Shown here piece after piece: positions 36,063-42,846 of a DNA stretch of 63,258 nucleotides. The notes under the pieces are model-generated. The model ran no database searches. It was not told where the DNA came from and worked only from the letters and a program-made list of their open reading frames with translations. Within the stretch, counting starts at the first letter, position 1; every line of letters starts with the position of its first letter. The stretch comes from Gemmatimonadetes bacterium bin94. Lineage in GTDB: Bacteria > Gemmatimonadota > Gemmatimonadetes > Longimicrobiales > Gaopeijiaceae. A program made the position numbers and the translations under genes. The stretch spans positions 1-63,258 of the forward strand of contig MPNE01000024.1 of the NCBI GenBank assembly GCA_002238865.1, given 5' to 3'.

Positions 36063-36671
36063 CTATGGTTCGACCCGGCCGCGTCCACTCGTGGCCTCCG
36101 CGATCCCGGCGTCCAGAAGGGCGCGGCGGTGAGTGGGAACCAGTACACGGTAACGTACATCGGCGCCAAAGAGCTTTTCGCTAACGGTTGCGTCCAGTTC
36201 CTCGAGCAAGAGGTCCACGCGTCGTGACGCCTCGTAGCTCACGGTGACGACGACGGCAGTGCGTTCGACCTTTTTCACTGTCGGACACACGTCCAGGACG
36301 CGTTTGACTCCGCCCGAGTAGGCGCGCGCCAGTCCTCCGGTTCCGAGCTTCACTCCGCCATAGAAGCGGGCGCATACCACGACTGCCTCTCCCACTCCCG
36401 AGTGGAGCAGGGTGGTCAGCATGGGCCTGCCGGCCGTCCCGTGCGGCTCGCCGGCGTCGCTCATGCCTATGCGGGCCGTCGAACCCGGTGCGCCGGCGTT
36501 GAACGCCCAGCAGTAGTGCGTCGCTCCAGGCAGCTCCTGCCTGGCCTTTTCGATGAAGAGCGCCGCGTCCTCCGGGCTTGCAGCGCGTCCCGCACGAGTC
36601 ACGAAGCGGCTGCGCCGGATGACCTCGAAGGATTCGGCGGGGCCGGCCGGTACGCGGTAGGAGTGGCTCAA
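36063..36671 (-). CDS. yigZ: YigZ/IMPACT family protein
   Basis: The protein has 202 residues. The IMPACT N-domain (UPF0029) signature is intact: HYCWAFNAG, RIGMSDAGEPHGTAGRPML and VVVCARFYGGVKLGTGGLAR. A C-terminal DUF1949-like ferredoxin-fold region follows (VVVTVSYEASRRVDLLLEEL). The family is linked to translation control and ribosome-associated regulation in eukaryotes and is of unknown exact function in bacteria. It is transcribed away from the feo operon. Confidence 0.9.
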   Translation of the reverse strand: MSHSYRVPAGPAESFEVIRRSRFVTRAGRAASPEDAALFIEKARQELPGATHYCWAFNAGAPGSTARIGMSDAGEPHGTAGRPMLTTLLHSGVGEAVVVCARFYGGVKLGTGGLARAYSGGVKRVLDVCPTVKKVERTAVVVTVSYEASRRVDLLLEELDATVSEKLFGADVRYRVLVPTHRRALLDAGIAEATSGRGRVEP

Positions 36672-36816
36672 TTCGCAACTCCATCAATCATTGTGGGCGA
36701 AGGGTCCATTGGCGGGGCTGGGGATTGACCAGGGTCGCCCACGACTGCGGCGTCAATCCCCCCGGGACTTTCCATTTCCGTCGTGCCCCCTTACTCTACT
36801 AGCGTGTGCCGGCAAT

Positions 36817-36831
36817 TGAGAATCAGTCTCA
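36817..36831 (+). promoter_or_regulatory. Fur-type iron operator upstream of feoA
   Basis: TGAGAATCAGTCTCA is a 7-1-7 inverted repeat (6 of 7 arms match) of the form recognised by Fur. A second half-site, ATCTCAA, follows directly and creates overlapping palindromes. A weak -35/-10 pair (TTTCCA 36769-36774, TACTCT 36792-36797, 17 nt apart) lies just upstream, placing the operator near the start of transcription. Confidence 0.65.
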
Positions 36832-36869
36832 ATCTCAAGAATGGCCGTTTCAGACATCACGATATCCCA

Positions 36870-37187
36870 ATGGGTGCTCTCACGGGAGGACTTGTGAGAA
36901 GGACAGACAACTCGGCCCCGACCCCCCCCGACCGCACACTGGCTGATGTCCCTCTGGAGGAGGAGGTCGTCCTGGTAAGGATGGACGTGGCCGGGGATGA
37001 TGTCGAGTCTCTCCTGGAGCGGGGAATTGTACCGGGATGCAAGCTCTGTCCGATTCGGCATGCTCCGGCGGGAGGCCCCACCGTCTACCGAGTGGACGGC
37101 GCCCTCGTCGCACTCCGGAAAGAGACCGCAGCGTGCCTTTGTGTGCGTAGTGCGCTGGAAGCGGCCGGGGTTCTCGCCTCGAATTGA
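36870..37187 (+). CDS. feoA: FeoA-like ferrous iron transport protein
   Basis: The protein has 105 residues from ATG 36870, or 97 from GTG 36894, which has GGAGG just upstream. The SH3-like FeoA domain spans TLADVPLEEEVVLVRMDVAG, LLERGIVPGCKLCP and GALVALRKETAACLCVRS. FeoA assists FeoB at the inner membrane. Its TGA overlaps the TTG start of feoB. The Fur-type operator upstream predicts induction under iron limitation. Confidence 0.85.
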   Translation: MGALTGGLVRRTDNSAPTPPDRTLADVPLEEEVVLVRMDVAGDDVESLLERGIVPGCKLCPIRHAPAGGPTVYRVDGALVALRKETAACLCVRSALEAAGVLASN

Positions 37188-39130
37188 ACGGGGGGACACC
37201 GTCCGCCACCCTGGTGGTGGATCCGGCCGAGGGTAATGGGGCCGCCCAGGGGCGTGCTCCCCTGGTTGCATTGGTGGGGCCGCCCAACTCGGGCAAGTCC
37301 ACGCTCTTCAATCACCTGACGGGGCTACGGCAGCGCGTTGCGAACTACCCGGGCGTGACCGTCGAGCGGAGGTCCGGGCAGGTCTCGCTGCCGACCGGCC
37401 CGGTGGAGGTGATCGACCTTCCGGGGGTGCACGGTCTTTCTCCGCGCAGCCTGGACCAGATGGTGACCCGGGACGTGCTCCTCGGTGAGCAGGAAGGCGC
37501 GCGACAACCCGACGCGGTCGTGCTCGTGCTGGACGCCACGCAGCTCAACTCCCACCTGATGGTCGCCGAGCCCGTGCTGGGGCTCGGCTTGCCGGCCCTC
37601 GTCGTCCTCACGATGGCCGACGAACTGGACAGGCGTGAAGGAGCGCTGCGTGTATCCCGTCTGTCCGGCGAGCTCGGCGTCGAGGTGGCGCTGGTCAACG
37701 CACGGGACCGCGCGACGCTGGAACCCGTACACCGCTTTCTGAAGGCCCTCCACACGGGTGGGGAGGAGGTGCGCGCGTGCCCGATCGTCGTTGCGGCCGA
37801 CCACGTTGAGGGCCACGGTGCGGGTCGCCCCCTCCCCATGATCGATCTCTTCGCGGCGCGCCGGGAGCGAGCCCGGGCCCTGGGCCGCTCGGCGGGGTTT
37901 CAGGCCCCCCGGCTCTCGCGGTCCACGCAGCGGCTCGATGCCCTTGTACTCCACCGTCTCTGGGGTCCCCTCATCTTCGCGGGTGTGGTCGCGCTCGTCT
38001 TCCAGGCCATCTTTGCGTGGGCAGTGCCGCTCATGGACGGCACCGAGGCCGCGATCGCCGCTTCCGGCGACCTCGTACGGACGGTCCTCCCCGAGAGCTG
38101 GTTCCGGTCCCTGCTGATCGACGGCGTCTGGGCGGGCGTGGGGTCCGTGGTGGTGTTCCTCCCGCAGATCCTGATCCTCTTCCTGTTCATCGCGGTCCTC
38201 GAGGACTCGGGGTACATGGCGCGCGCCGCCGTGATCGCAGACCGGCTCATGCACCGGGTAGGCCTGCAGGGGAAGTCCTTCCTGCCGCTTCTGTCCGCCT
38301 ACGCGTGCGCCGTGCCCGCGATCATGTCGGCGCGGACGGTCGAGGACGAGCGGGACCGGATCGCCACCATCTTCGTGGCGCCGTTCATGACCTGCTCCGC
38401 CCGGCTTCCGGTATACGCGCTGCTCATCGCGGCGTTCATCCCCGCTCAACCCATGCTGGGACCGTTCTTCGGACAGCGCGCAGCGGTTCTCGTCGGGCTC
38501 TACGCGCTCGGGCTGGTCGCGGCCATCGGCACGGCGGCGATCCTCAAGGGCACGCTTCTCAAGGGGCGGCCCGTCCCGTTTGTGATGGAGTTGCCTCCGT
38601 ACCGTCTGCCCAGTGTTCGCTCGGTTGGCGCGCGCCTCCTTGACCGGGCGAAGGTCTTCGTTCGGCGTGTCGGGAAGGTCATCCTGACGGTGACCGTTGT
38701 GCTCTGGGTTCTGACCCAGCTTCCCGTGACACCGGACGGTGAAACACCGCCGATCAGCGACAGCGCTCTCGGCCGGGTCGGCCACGTGATCGAACCCGTG
38801 ATCGAGCCCCTTGGATTCGATTGGCGCATCGGGATCGGGCTCGTCACGTCCCTTGCCGCGAGGGAGGTGATCGTCGGAACACTGGGCACCATCTACGGGA
38901 TCGAGAACCAGGACTCGCAGGACTTCGAATTGCAGGCGGCCCTCCAGCGGGACCTGGACCTGGGCGCGGCGGTTGCGCTGCTGATCTTCTTCGTCTTTGC
39001 ACTCCAGTGCATGTCGACCGTGGCCGTGATGCGTCGCGAAACGGGAGGATGGCGATGGCCCATCCTGCAATTCACGTACATGCTGCTGCTCGCCTATGTG
39101 GGGGCGTGGGCAGCCAACGCAATCCTGTGA
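37184..39130 (+). CDS. feoB: FeoB ferrous iron transporter
   Basis: The protein has 648 residues, at the short end for FeoB. The G domain has G1 GPPNSGKST, G2 in GVTVERR and G3 DLPGVHG; the usual NxxD G4 is altered to TMADELD, which may lower guanine specificity. Gate regions follow: EDSGYMARAAVIADRLM, FLPLLSAYACAVPAIMSART and FMTCSARLPVYALLI. It transports Fe2+ across the inner membrane. TTG 37184 overlaps the feoA stop (TTGA); no other in-frame start precedes the G1 motif as well. Confidence 0.95.
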   Translation: MNGGTPSATLVVDPAEGNGAAQGRAPLVALVGPPNSGKSTLFNHLTGLRQRVANYPGVTVERRSGQVSLPTGPVEVIDLPGVHGLSPRSLDQMVTRDVLLGEQEGARQPDAVVLVLDATQLNSHLMVAEPVLGLGLPALVVLTMADELDRREGALRVSRLSGELGVEVALVNARDRATLEPVHRFLKALHTGGEEVRACPIVVAADHVEGHGAGRPLPMIDLFAARRERARALGRSAGFQAPRLSRSTQRLDALVLHRLWGPLIFAGVVALVFQAIFAWAVPLMDGTEAAIAASGDLVRTVLPESWFRSLLIDGVWAGVGSVVVFLPQILILFLFIAVLEDSGYMARAAVIADRLMHRVGLQGKSFLPLLSAYACAVPAIMSARTVEDERDRIATIFVAPFMTCSARLPVYALLIAAFIPAQPMLGPFFGQRAAVLVGLYALGLVAAIGTAAILKGTLLKGRPVPFVMELPPYRLPSVRSVGARLLDRAKVFVRRVGKVILTVTVVLWVLTQLPVTPDGETPPISDSALGRVGHVIEPVIEPLGFDWRIGIGLVTSLAAREVIVGTLGTIYGIENQDSQDFELQAALQRDLDLGAAVALLIFFVFALQCMSTVAVMRRETGGWRWPILQFTYMLLLAYVGAWAANAIL

Positions 39131-40125
39131 CGGTGACGATCGAGCGCCCGGCCACCGTTTGCCGCACGATCTGCCTTGCGGCCGCGGCGGTGTTCGGCGC
39201 GAGCTGCACGCCCGCCCCTCCCGACGCGGTCTCCGGCGAATTCGTCGTTGACGACCGGGGGCGCAGGCACGAGGTGTCCATCCCCCGCACCCGTATCGTC
39301 TCCCTGATCCCCGCCGCCACCGAAACCCTGGCCGCAATCGGCGCGACCGACCGCCTTGTCGCGCGCACCCGCTACGACGATCATCCCGACCTGGCGTCCC
39401 TCCCGTCCGTCGGTGGAGGGATCGACCCGAGCCTCGAGTTCCTGGCCGAGCTCGCCCCCGATCTGGTCATCCTCTGGCCCGCCGCCGGAGGTGGTGTCAC
39501 GCTCGGGGATCGCCTGGCCGAGGTCGGGCTGTACGGGTACGCGGCGGAGATCCAGACGGTGGCCGACTTCAACCGATTGGCACGGAACCTCGGTCGACTT
39601 GTCGGCCTCGGTGATCGCGCGGATGCCCTGGTCGAGGGCGTGCGTGCGCAACTGGCCGACGTTCGGCAGGCCTGGTCGGGGCGCGATCCCGTCGAAGTGA
39701 TGTACGTCGTCCAGCACGAGCCGCCGATGACGGTCGGGCCCGGCACGTTTCTTGACTCGGTCCTGGCCGCGGCAGGCGGTGTCGGCGCATTCCATGACAT
39801 CCGCGGCAACTGGCCACTCGTCAGCATGGAGGAGGTCGTGTTGCGGGACCCCGAGTTTCTCGTGGTCCCGGTGGTCGGGTACGGTACCCCCCCGGTCCCG
39901 CTGGAGTCCCCCGATCCGTCAGCGGCCCGGTTGGCCCAACTGCCGGGCTGGTCGGCGGTCCCGGCTGTGCAGGCGGGCCGCGTCATCTCGGTCGACGCCT
40001 CGCTCTTCGGGCGGCCCGGCCCCCGCATGGGTGATGCCGCCCGCTACCTGGCCTCCAGGCTCCACGGCACGACCTTCAGGATACCCGCGGCGGCCGCTTC
40101 TTCAGCACGAAGAGCCCCTCCTTGA
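39127..40125 (+). CDS. BtuF-like substrate-binding lipoprotein (helical-backbone metal/cobalamin receptor type)
   Basis: The protein has 332 residues. The lipobox is VFGASC. Landmarks are RIVSLIPAATETLAAIGATD, YDDHPDLASLPSVGG, ELAPDLVILWPAAG and a conserved-type C-terminal WSAVPAVQAGRVISVDAS. The family feeds vitamin B12, haem or iron-siderophore ABC importers. GTG 39127 overlaps the feoB stop (GTGA), tying it to iron uptake. No permease or ATPase follows in the window. Its 3' end overlaps the convergent LVIVD protein gene by 50 bp. Confidence 0.85.
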   Translation: MTVTIERPATVCRTICLAAAAVFGASCTPAPPDAVSGEFVVDDRGRRHEVSIPRTRIVSLIPAATETLAAIGATDRLVARTRYDDHPDLASLPSVGGGIDPSLEFLAELAPDLVILWPAAGGGVTLGDRLAEVGLYGYAAEIQTVADFNRLARNLGRLVGLGDRADALVEGVRAQLADVRQAWSGRDPVEVMYVVQHEPPMTVGPGTFLDSVLAAAGGVGAFHDIRGNWPLVSMEEVVLRDPEFLVVPVVGYGTPPVPLESPDPSAARLAQLPGWSAVPAVQAGRVISVDASLFGRPGPRMGDAARYLASRLHGTTFRIPAAAASSARRAPP

Positions 40126-42631
40126 TGCTCGAAACGATGATGATCCCGCTCTCGAAGTAGGGGTACACGCTCCACGCCCCCGCGAAACCCGCCCTGTCCT
40201 CGCCGAAGGGCACCGTGTCGAAGAAGCCCACCTCCCTCGGGGCTTCCCCGTCGGAGATATCGAGGATCCGGAGTCCGCTCAGGTAGTTGGCCTGGTACAT
40301 GAAGTCTCCGCGGACGTACAGGTTGTGATCCGAAGAGCCCGTCGTGCCGAAGTGCTCGTTGACCAGCACCGGGTCCCCCAGTTCCTCGATGTCCCAGACG
40401 AGGGTGCGTGTCCGGGACACCTGCCCGCCCAGCTCGTCCGTCTCGTCGTTCATGTAGAAGTACCGGTGGTCGTCCGAGATCCAGCCCTGGTGGAGGTATC
40501 CGGTGTTGGGGTAGGATTCGGTCGCCAGGGAGACGGGAGCCTCCTTGTCGGTGACGTCCGAGATCGAGAGCGCGTTCTCGTTCGCGCCGAGACAGATCTC
40601 GTGACCGGTGTACTCCTCGTCGGGCCCATGGTAGATCACGCACTGGGCGTCGTGGCTGTATCCCGTGCCCGCGTTGCCGGTGCCGGCCTCGGCGAAACAC
40701 CCGGCGAACACCGGGTTCGCGGGGTTGCGGATGTCGATCATGTGAAGGCCGCCCCCACACGTCTCCCCTCCGCCCGACGCCCCCACGACGTAGGCGAAAC
40801 CCGTCTCCTCGTTGATCACGATGTTGTGCGCCGAGTTGATGCCGTCGTAGCGGGCCGTGGCCGCGAAGGTAACCGGGGGTGAGGTCACGTCGCGCAGCTG
40901 CGTGAGGTCGAAGACCTGGACGCCGTGCGCGCCCGCATTGTCCGCGACCACGTAGGCGTGGTCCGCGTAGACCTTGATGTCGCGCCACATGTTCGTGATG
41001 GCACCCTCCGTCAGGGGAAGCTCCCCCAGATAGACCGGGTTGCCGGGGTCGCTCAGGTCGATGAATGTCGTCCCGTCAGCGCGCCCCATGATGGCGTACT
41101 CGCGCCCCGACTGCGGATCCGTCCACCCCCAGAGGTCGTTGGCGATCATGCCGCGCTCACCGCCCAGGTCCTGGACCGGCACGAAGGCGACGAGGTCGAC
41201 CTCGCTGCACGTGAAGCCGCCCGCCTCCCCCTCCTCGCACTCCCGCTCCTCGCCGCGGACGGCCTCCAGTCCCGCCGCTTCGTCGACAATCGTCCCCTCG
41301 GGGTCCCAACCGGTTGCAGTGCGGCGGAAGAGGAATCCGGCCCCCTCGAAGAAGTCGGCGCCGGGTGCGCCCACCACCGCAACATCCCCTCCGACCGCGA
41401 CCGCGAGGCCCTGGAAGCTGAAGGGGCCGCCGGGTCCGAAGTCGGCGACTTGCGACCACTCCCCCGTCCCGTCACGGCGAAACGCGAGGCCACCGCCGAT
41501 CCCGCCACCGACCAGAGGGGTTCCCGCGACCAGATCGTCACCGGAGGCGGCGACAGCCATGCCGAACCCGGAGAGGGGAGCAGGGGACTCGGGCCGGATC
41601 GTGTGGGAGAGCGTCCAGTTGCCTGCTCCCTGTCCGGCCGCACCGGTCTCACCGGTCCGGGTGTAGTGATACACGGCGCCGTTGCCTTGGCCGCTCAGCG
41701 GCGCTCCCGCGAAGACTTCGCCCCCCGACACAGCCACGCTGGCTCCCAGCGACGAGGGTCCGGGATCGGGGGGATCGAGACGGCCTGCCGGGGACCAGAC
41801 GCCGGACTCACCGGCGAAGACGTGCACCGACCCGGGCTGAAAGTTGGGCTCGCCGGTCCCGGGAATCAGCGCGATCCCCCCACCCGGGGCACCGACCGCC
41901 AGAAGCTGTCCCTCCACGTCCAGGGACGTGCCGAATCCGGCTCCCTCGGGCAGGTCCCCGGGCCTGAGAGCCCCGGCTTCGGTCCAGCCGGTCGCGCCTC
42001 CCGCGAAGACGACCACAGCTCCCGCGCCGGCGTCCGCTCCGGGAGCGCCGACCGCGATATCCTGTCCGTTGGTGGCCACCGTTGCTCCAAAGCGGGGGTC
42101 GGCACCGCCTCCGGACCATGCGAGGCGCTCCTGAAGGGCCCACTCGCCCCCGGTTCGGCGATATACGTAGACGGCGCCCGTGCCCTCCTGCGGCGCTCCC
42201 ACGACCATCACGTCACCGCTGGCGTCGAGACCTTCCCCGTATCCGGTGGCCGAGCCGGCCTCCTCCGAGATGAGAGCGGCGACCTCGGCCCACGAGTCAC
42301 CGGCACGGCTGAATACGTGGACGCCCCCGGGCCGGTTGCCCGGCATTGGAAAGATGGCGAGTCCACCCGGCCTGCCCACATAGATGTAGCCATCCTCCAG
42401 GACGACGCTGGCGGAGAAGGCCGACAGGGAGCCCGTGGTCGGGATCGACGGGCTGGTGGATGCGTTGGTCTGGCTGCGGGCAACCGAAGGGGAGAGAAGC
42501 AGGACAGCGGCCGCCATCAGGGCAGGGAGGCGCAGCCGCGCCGCGAGGGAGGTGCGCGGGTCCCGCCGTGGCGCCAGGGGATGGAGGGGCAGCCCCGGCC
42601 CCGCACTGCGGAAGTGGTGTCGGATTCGCAT
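40076..42631 (-). CDS. exported FG-GAP plus LVIVD (choice-of-anchor B) repeat protein
   Basis: The protein has 851 residues from ATG 42631 (CAGGACG upstream). A signal peptide (LMAAAVLLLSPSVARSQ) is followed by about seven FG-GAP-like repeats (GDVMVVGAPQEGTGAVYVYR, GQDIAVGAPGADAGAGAVVV). From about residue 480 come LVIVD repeats of the choice-of-anchor B type (YAIMGRADGTTFIDLSDPGN, DIKVYADHAYVVADNAGAHG), ending VSSIKEGLFVLKKRPP. Both halves form propellers. Surface adhesion or ligand binding is likely; no enzyme motif is seen. Confidence 0.8.
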   Translation of the reverse strand: MRIRHHFRSAGPGLPLHPLAPRRDPRTSLAARLRLPALMAAAVLLLSPSVARSQTNASTSPSIPTTGSLSAFSASVVLEDGYIYVGRPGGLAIFPMPGNRPGGVHVFSRAGDSWAEVAALISEEAGSATGYGEGLDASGDVMVVGAPQEGTGAVYVYRRTGGEWALQERLAWSGGGADPRFGATVATNGQDIAVGAPGADAGAGAVVVFAGGATGWTEAGALRPGDLPEGAGFGTSLDVEGQLLAVGAPGGGIALIPGTGEPNFQPGSVHVFAGESGVWSPAGRLDPPDPGPSSLGASVAVSGGEVFAGAPLSGQGNGAVYHYTRTGETGAAGQGAGNWTLSHTIRPESPAPLSGFGMAVAASGDDLVAGTPLVGGGIGGGLAFRRDGTGEWSQVADFGPGGPFSFQGLAVAVGGDVAVVGAPGADFFEGAGFLFRRTATGWDPEGTIVDEAAGLEAVRGEERECEEGEAGGFTCSEVDLVAFVPVQDLGGERGMIANDLWGWTDPQSGREYAIMGRADGTTFIDLSDPGNPVYLGELPLTEGAITNMWRDIKVYADHAYVVADNAGAHGVQVFDLTQLRDVTSPPVTFAATARYDGINSAHNIVINEETGFAYVVGASGGGETCGGGLHMIDIRNPANPVFAGCFAEAGTGNAGTGYSHDAQCVIYHGPDEEYTGHEICLGANENALSISDVTDKEAPVSLATESYPNTGYLHQGWISDDHRYFYMNDETDELGGQVSRTRTLVWDIEELGDPVLVNEHFGTTGSSDHNLYVRGDFMYQANYLSGLRILDISDGEAPREVGFFDTVPFGEDRAGFAGAWSVYPYFESGIIIVSSIKEGLFVLKKRPPRVS

Positions 42632-42846
42632 CGTGCTTACGTCCTGACGATTCGAGGGTTCGGTGACCGGTTCCCATCGGGTGGATCGGTCGATCAAGGT
42701 ACATGCGCACGTGGTCATCGAACCAGATCGCCCACGCCTCGGCTAAGCCGGCACGCGAAGCATGGCCATCATCGCGGGCACGGAGCGGAAGGCCGACAAA
42801 CGTGGCATAATGAGTGGCCGCCGACATCTCACGCCGGAGACCACCG

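Follow-up and report, generated by a model that had tools for sequence, protein, structure and literature searches.

A BtuF-like receptor gene in the ferrous-iron operon of a Gemmatimonadetes bacterium: probable receptor of a split vitamin B12 importer

The feo-btuF locus

The subject of this analysis is a gene for a BtuF-like lipoprotein receptor that stands at the end of a ferrous-iron (feo) operon in Gemmatimonadetes bacterium bin94, and the transporter that this receptor is likely to serve. The stretch of DNA analysed (hereafter the window; 63,258 nucleotides, contig MPNE01000024.1 of assembly GCA_002238865.1) corresponds to contig C73 in a genome of 4.42 Mb labelled G000, with completeness of 97.5%; other genomes, contigs and loci are cited by labels of the same kind. 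Profile searches of the window placed feoA, feoB and a gene for a receptor of family PF01497 in a row on the + strand (Table 1). Both feo genes are complete and score over their curated cut-offs, and FeoB, which passes that of TIGR00437, contains the domains PF02421 (FeoB_N) and PF07670 (Gate). If the predicted start codons are correct, the TGA of feoA (37185–37187) and the TTG of feoB (37184) share the 4-base overlap TTGA, and the TGA of feoB (39128–39130) and the GTG of the receptor gene (39127) share the overlap GTGA. The order feoA-feoB-BtuF-like lipoprotein with stop-start overlaps, reported by a first-pass annotation of the same DNA, was thus confirmed for the window, but overlaps are not general in relatives, where the spacing between feoB and btuF varies from overlap up to ~1 kb (G006). 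An open reading frame of 190 amino acids with no NCBIfam match lies between feoB and btuF of G006 (L092:8002-8574, − strand).

Table 1. Features of the feo-btuF locus and its flanks (positions in the window)
Feature	Position	Strand	Remarks
UPF0029-family gene	36063..36671	-	PF01205, E 3e-29; divergent; flank kept on the 5′ side of feoA
7-1-7 palindrome TGAGAATCAGTCTCA resembling a Fur box; probable operator for feo-btuF	36817..36831	+	1 mismatch to consensus
feoA	36870..37187	+	PF04023, E 7e-13; probable start ATG 36870 or GTG 36894
feoB, 648 amino acids	37184..39130	+	TTG start overlapping feoA stop; TIGR00437, 447.5 bits, cut-off 315.65
btuF-like lipoprotein receptor gene	39127..40125	+	GTG start overlapping feoB stop; PF01497, E 1e-26, 94.1 bits, cut-off 27.5
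Cysteine probably lipidated (C27 in the open frame)	39205..39207	+	lipobox GASC imperfect; better in relatives, e.g. LAGC
E104 codon; aligns with the docking glutamate in the N lobe of E. coli BtuF	39436..39438	+	invariant in 32 sequences (E74 of A2)
E235 codon; aligns with the docking glutamate in the C lobe of E. coli BtuF	39829..39831	+	invariant in 32 sequences (E205 of A2)
Choice-of-anchor B family gene	40076..42718	-	TIGR04312, 467.5 bits, cut-off 100; convergent; kept downstream flank

A receptor-less BtuCD and the probable need for vitamin B12

The receptor was first described as one without a transporter, which is true of the locus and does not hold for the genome as a whole. One FecCD permease was found in G000 (contig C57; PF01032, 303.3 bits) with an ATPase gene directly behind it, and a cobalamin riboswitch (RF00174, 45.2 bits with a gathering score of 31.5) directly 5′ of this btuC-btuD pair. 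No receptor gene was found beside the pair on C57. The best NCBIfam model for the permease is BtuC (NF007081, 253.7 bits, under the cut-off of 461), and for the ATPase it is “corrinoid ABC transporter ATPase” (ABC, ATP-binding cassette), with 257.7 bits, likewise under the cut-off (537). The only other PF01497 protein of G000 (C3:6910-7596, locus L012) was considered as a candidate BtuF. Since inspection by eye revealed no signal peptide in its open frame, it is unlikely to be an external receptor.

The genus to which the window belongs probably has a use for such a transporter. The activation domain of the B12-dependent methionine synthase MetH was found in 22 of its 23 genomes, the exception being G157, which is 86% complete, while a profile search for CbiC found this protein in none of the 23; the same two family profiles were each found in 7 of 14 control genomes. 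Judging by gene content, the genus probably cannot make B12 and must import it, and because MetH is so widespread and CbiC was not encountered, this import is probably essential. Passages of a published account of Palauibacterales (PMC10469786) describe no B12 pathway but the presence of btuF and btuB; that the genus stands near Candidatus Palauibacter is our guess.

Complementary distribution of two receptor types

Receptors were searched for in the 23 genomes of the genus and their types were called at E ≤ 1e-20. The type found in the feo operon (54–100% identity) is present in 13 genomes and a second, riboswitch-linked type (43–46% identity) in 12; two genomes (G038 and G109) have both and none has neither. 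This overlap is the smallest possible for such totals (Fisher test, 5.8e-5, a value overstating the evidence in so far as the genomes are related). All ten genomes without the feo-type gene carry a riboswitch-linked BtuF, and in 11 genomes the feo-type receptor is the only one of its kind at this threshold. The two types differ in their surroundings as well. In 12 of the 13 genus genomes concerned, the feo-type btuF and feoB share a contig and are close together, both genes being near contig ends in the remaining one (G120). The linkage recurs outside the genus in G141 and G050, which belong to two other genera; feoAB without a feo-type receptor was registered in nine of the genus genomes where feoB was found. 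The second-type receptor is encoded on the contig of BtuC, within 5 kb of it, in 12 cases out of 12, with a cobalamin riboswitch on its 5′ side in all 11 loci fetched (that of G153 was not fetched). Finally, each of the ten feo-type genomes that have neither the second receptor nor feo-linked btuCD encodes BtuC and BtuD together and with no receptor, G000 being one of the ten. A second cobalamin riboswitch, facing away from the btu operon, was noticed in seven loci (L089, L115, L124, L125, L126, L127 and L128); we can only guess that btuB is its target.

Beyond the genus, a survey of 149 genomes of the class showed FeoB-BtuF adjacency only in G141 and G050, among the matches listed. A wider scan of contigs for the same linkage covered the best 80 of 527 confirmed matches (79 named loci), and within this set feoB was nearby in six loci, all of them Gemmatimonadota or Longimicrobiales metagenome-assembled genomes and all among the seven with 57–70% identity, the seventh (L165) being cut by a contig end. 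Among the titles and first lines of abstracts listed in literature searches, none describes a feo operon that contains btuF or btuFCD.

Synteny and possible origin of the split

Three genomes retain what may be the initial arrangement. In G135, a member of the genus, and in G141 and G050, which represent two other genera of the family, feoA, feoB, btuF, btuC and btuD follow each other in one run, and no riboswitch at gathering score was found at these three loci. Each of them has one FecCD permease (E ≤ 1e-10), and for G135 the feo-linked permease is the only one even at E ≤ 1e-5. Constant flanking genes, UPF0029 on the 5′ side and choice-of-anchor B on the 3′ side, arrange the related loci into a ladder: the flanks enclose feoAB-btuFCD in G141, feoAB-btuF in the window and in G038, G109, G041, G006, G137, G077, G149 and G152, and feoAB alone in G035, G150, G157 and G159. 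Only the downstream flank was seen in G050 and only the upstream one in G135, while one or both flanks are out of sight in the remaining loci, some of which lie at contig ends. Mapped on the tree of FeoB, the label “feo-linked btuF” requires three changes, each of which is forced by branches with good support. With G141 and G050 outside, the pattern agrees with an old linkage of feo and btuF lost about three times; the tree was rooted at its midpoint, and the direction of the changes is what we infer from it. A search for remnants of feo-type btuF near feoAB of receptor-less genomes gave matches of chance level only (best E 0.016).

The trees of the transporter components point to a mixed origin of the present system. 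The BtuFs of the feo type are grouped in a single clade (100/100). Of the BtuCs, those from receptor-less pairs are placed within the riboswitch-type clade (100/100), and the feo-linked ones make up a separate clade (100/100). Because of these different placements, BtuF and BtuC of the window's genome belong to different lineages. Remains of a native btuF were found in G152, although feo-btuF is present there too: between the riboswitch and btuC of this genome are two short fragments of btuF of the riboswitch type, and the flanks of this remnant are 94–95% identical to those in G154, where btuF is intact. In a family designated f4, BtuC of two members (G001, G005) and BtuF of three (G001, G128, G013) are nested in the clade of the genus, because of which the riboswitch-btuFCD operon seems to move horizontally.

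As for the flanks themselves, the UPF0029 gene precedes feoA in 20 of 23 further loci with feoB that were inspected (the exceptions are G050, G155 and G158, the last one cut by a contig end), and the choice-of-anchor B gene marks the position that btuC-btuD occupy in two related genera. In the window the 3′ ends of this gene and the receptor gene overlap over 50 bases (40076–40125).

The receptor protein

Among solved structures the closest relative of the receptor by sequence is BtuF of V. cholerae (5ysc, E 2e-22), followed by chains of E. coli BtuF, and the first haem receptor is 2r7a (E 5e-15). The AlphaFold2 model (predicted local distance difference test score, pLDDT, 91.1) has the fold of PF01497 class III receptors. 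A cysteine that fits the lipobox rule, though imperfectly, is expected to anchor the protein. Both glutamates listed in Table 1 are invariant in 32 of 32 sequences; their counterparts in E. coli BtuF are those that dock on BtuC, and the matching arginines of BtuC appear to be retained when it is aligned with the E. coli protein. There are signs against decay of the gene: the ratio of non-synonymous to synonymous substitution rates (dN/dS) was 0.14–0.27 in 11 pairs, all of genomes where no btuCD was seen behind feo-btuF, and the core is free of stops in 13 of 13 genus genomes. Single stops were marked in five of the 13 matches, at the C-terminal end of the match in the two that were inspected (G120 and G041).

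The G4 motif of FeoB

The first-pass annotation had singled out an altered G4 motif of FeoB. The alteration is real, as the motif reads TMAD where NxxD is expected (N to T; codon of T143 at 37610–37612), but it is not specific for this operon: threonine occupies the position in all 14 close FeoBs, with or without the receptor (TMAD in 13 and TMGD in G032), while asparagine does so in 19 of 20 more distant ones and threonine in one. The altered G4 is therefore a clade trait independent of the receptor, and its candidacy for a special trait of the feo-btuF operon was dismissed. A second FeoB of G000 (C81, L014:365-3732, − strand) has a normal G4 (NLVD) and sits behind a gene which by eye resembles a DtxR-type regulator with two FeoA-like domains.

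Fur-like site and regulation

The suggestion that a Fur box precedes feoA gains support. The palindrome TGAGAATCAGTCTCA is the only site in the window with at most one mismatch to the 7-1-7 Fur consensus TGAGAATNATTCTCA, and none of 100 shuffles had one. A palindrome with at most three mismatches was registered 5′ of feoA in 16 of 21 testable loci of the genus and is absent in G006, G137, G077, G149 and G155 (the testable set leaves out G158, where the region is lost at a contig end, and G154, which has no such feoB); outside the genus G141 has a site with two mismatches and G050 is without it. The Fur family (PF01475) gave 58 matches distributed over all 23 genomes, and 34 of them were fetched for a tree. 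One paralogue, encoded on contig C80 in G000, makes up a clade with members from 17 genomes (99/97) and is missing in G006, G137, G077, G149, G155 and G156; all Fur matches of these six genomes are in the tree except one of the four of G137, whose score equals that of a fetched match from another clade. Of the 21 testable loci, the site and this paralogue occur together in 15, both are lacking in five, the site alone is present in one (G156) and the paralogue alone in none (Fisher test, 2.9e-4, with no correction for phylogeny). This co-occurrence supports, but does not prove, that the palindrome serves as an operator of that paralogue. The longest open frame of feoA begins 5′ of the palindrome, and if the latter is the operator, the start of feoA must be on its 3′ side, probably at one of the two codons given in Table 1. 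Fur control cannot be the sole reason for the linkage of feo and btuF, because the linkage survives in genomes without the site.

A scan of 36650–40300 for sigma-70 promoters found none. A+T-rich stretches noticed by eye 5′ of btuF in G137 (L094:7611-7840) and G120 (L098:6825-7137) could harbor a promoter of its own; G137 is without the Fur site and the Fur paralogue, and G120 has both.

Assignment of the receptor

Taken together, these data make a split BtuCDF very probable, with the feo-linked protein as its receptor for corrinoids (vitamin B12) and with BtuCD encoded on another contig behind a riboswitch. This assignment is based on gene order, two receptor lineages with complementary distribution, one gene remnant and the probable need for B12. 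BtuCDF is a known system, and comparative evidence supports well this variant of it with the receptor inside a ferrous-iron operon. A number of observations pull in the opposite direction. A clear remnant of native btuF was found in one of ten receptor-less loci and none is clear in the other nine; the riboswitch reaches gathering score in seven of these ten (in G120 it stops at 31.2 against 31.5, in G158 and G155 there is none). Two genomes, G038 and G109, keep both receptors, and at E ≤ 1e-5 a second, weaker match appears in seven feo-only genomes of the class sample; in G000 it is the C3 protein. A second type of FecCD permease (~188–191 bits) with no receptor assigned is present in G109, G038, G152, G150, G154 and G159. 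The placement of some genomes differs between the trees of BtuC and FeoB, because of which part of the changes may be horizontal transfer. Two haem permeases (1.2e-57 and 4.7e-56) are marginally ahead of BtuC (3e-55) among solved relatives of the G000 permease. The receptor scores 67.7 bits with the NCBIfam BtuF model NF002894, below the cut-off of 234, and of the five cobalamin contacts of BtuF named in passages of PMC5662663 (Y50, W66, F162, F168, W196) it keeps two, Y50 and W196. The riboswitch-linked BtuF of G035 is also below the cut-off (95.4 bits), V. cholerae BtuF likewise differs at W66, F162 and F168, and mutants of W66, as parts of another report state (PMC5269720), bind cobalamin near-normally unless the substitution is charged. 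In G109 there is also a further FecCD permease of 224 bits.

If the ligand were an iron complex, haem or siderophore, the feo context would reflect the substrate, and BtuCD would import iron chelates along with B12. The Fur-like operator, the linkage with feo, the receptor fold, which is equally close to haem receptors, the slight preference of the permease for haem relatives, the pair of genomes with both receptors and the three altered contacts are all in line with this view. With the receptor model Foldseek ranked BtuF 5ysc first and a Shigella haem receptor second to third, so that fold matching, tried as a ligand test, failed to separate B12 from haem receptors. Nevertheless, this is the sole receptor of its kind in 11 genomes of a genus that probably needs B12, its sequence is closer to solved B12 receptors than to haem receptors, and the only FecCD permease of G135 is paired with it; an iron complex is thus an improbable ligand. 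It is hardly credible that the protein passes ferrous or chelated iron to FeoB with no ABC transporter, as the first-pass annotation proposed. The adjacency to feoB, conserved in 12 of 13 receptor-bearing genomes of the genus and in two further genera, speaks for that proposal. Of the two findings that the annotation named as refuting it together, an ABC system elsewhere and no conserved linkage to feoB, the first was made and the second was not. Against it are the conserved residues for docking on an ABC permease and the complete btuFCD behind feoAB in one member of the genus and two related genera; because nine feoAB loci exist without the receptor and an ABC permease with its ATPase, lacking a receptor, is encoded elsewhere in the genome, we reject it. 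There is also very little chance that btuF is a leftover, decaying without a partner after btuCD had gone from the feo operon. The absence of btuCD between btuF and the constant downstream gene and the three changes on the tree of FeoB, if taken for losses, would agree with decay, but low dN/dS, the stop-free core and the presence of riboswitch-linked BtuF in every genus genome that lacks the feo-type receptor disagree with it.

Proposed mechanism and its possible significance

For the split BtuCDF we infer the ligand, the docking and the regulation by Fur, as well as the succession of events in the genome of the window, as follows. The receptor would capture B12 in the periplasm and dock on BtuCD of C57, and would not feed FeoB. 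It would be expressed with feoAB, probably under Fur, while the permease and the ATPase would answer to B12. The system could have originated from a complete btuFCD behind feoAB, of the kind seen in G135, G141 and G050, from which btuCD was then lost; in parallel, a riboswitch-controlled btuFCD would have lost its own btuF, as the remains in G152 suggest, leaving BtuCD of one lineage dependent on the receptor of another. It is tempting, though rather doubtful, to see here an iron-and-vitamin gate, in which Fur sets the supply of the receptor and the riboswitch that of the permease, BtuCD accepts receptors of two deeply split lineages, which have replaced each other repeatedly, and a single BtuCD may import two different metal chelates in the genomes with both receptors (G038, G109).

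If the regulation is as proposed, uptake of B12 would be tied to iron status in Gemmatimonadota without CbiC; several related records look sponge-associated, which is a guess. In more general terms, an orphan-looking receptor turned out to be assignable by complementary distribution, a gene remnant and a ladder of synteny rather than by its neighbours, and the genus offers a natural series of an ABC importer changing its receptors, useful for studies of receptor-permease specificity.

Comparison with known systems

The closest model is BtuCDF of E. coli (BtuF 1n2z, BtuCD 1l7v), which likewise combines a PF01497 receptor, a FecCD permease and an ATPase and in which the docking glutamates are aligned with those found here. 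In E. coli, too, btuF stands outside the btuCD operon. The differences are that the receptor described here belongs to a ferrous-iron operon with a Fur-like operator, whereas its permease is encoded behind a cobalamin riboswitch, and that the two come from different btuFCD lineages. The riboswitch-controlled btuFCD of the genus (e.g. in G035 and G154) shares the BtuC lineage (100/100 clade) and RF00174 with the receptor-less pair, but has its own btuF, 43–46% identical to the feo-linked one. With the usual FeoAB system the locus has feoA and feoB in common, being extended by btuF or btuFCD and having TxxD instead of NxxD in G4. Haem receptors of the ShuT/HmuT type have the same fold and similar Foldseek scores, whereas in sequence the receptor of the window is closer to BtuF, and its context points to B12.

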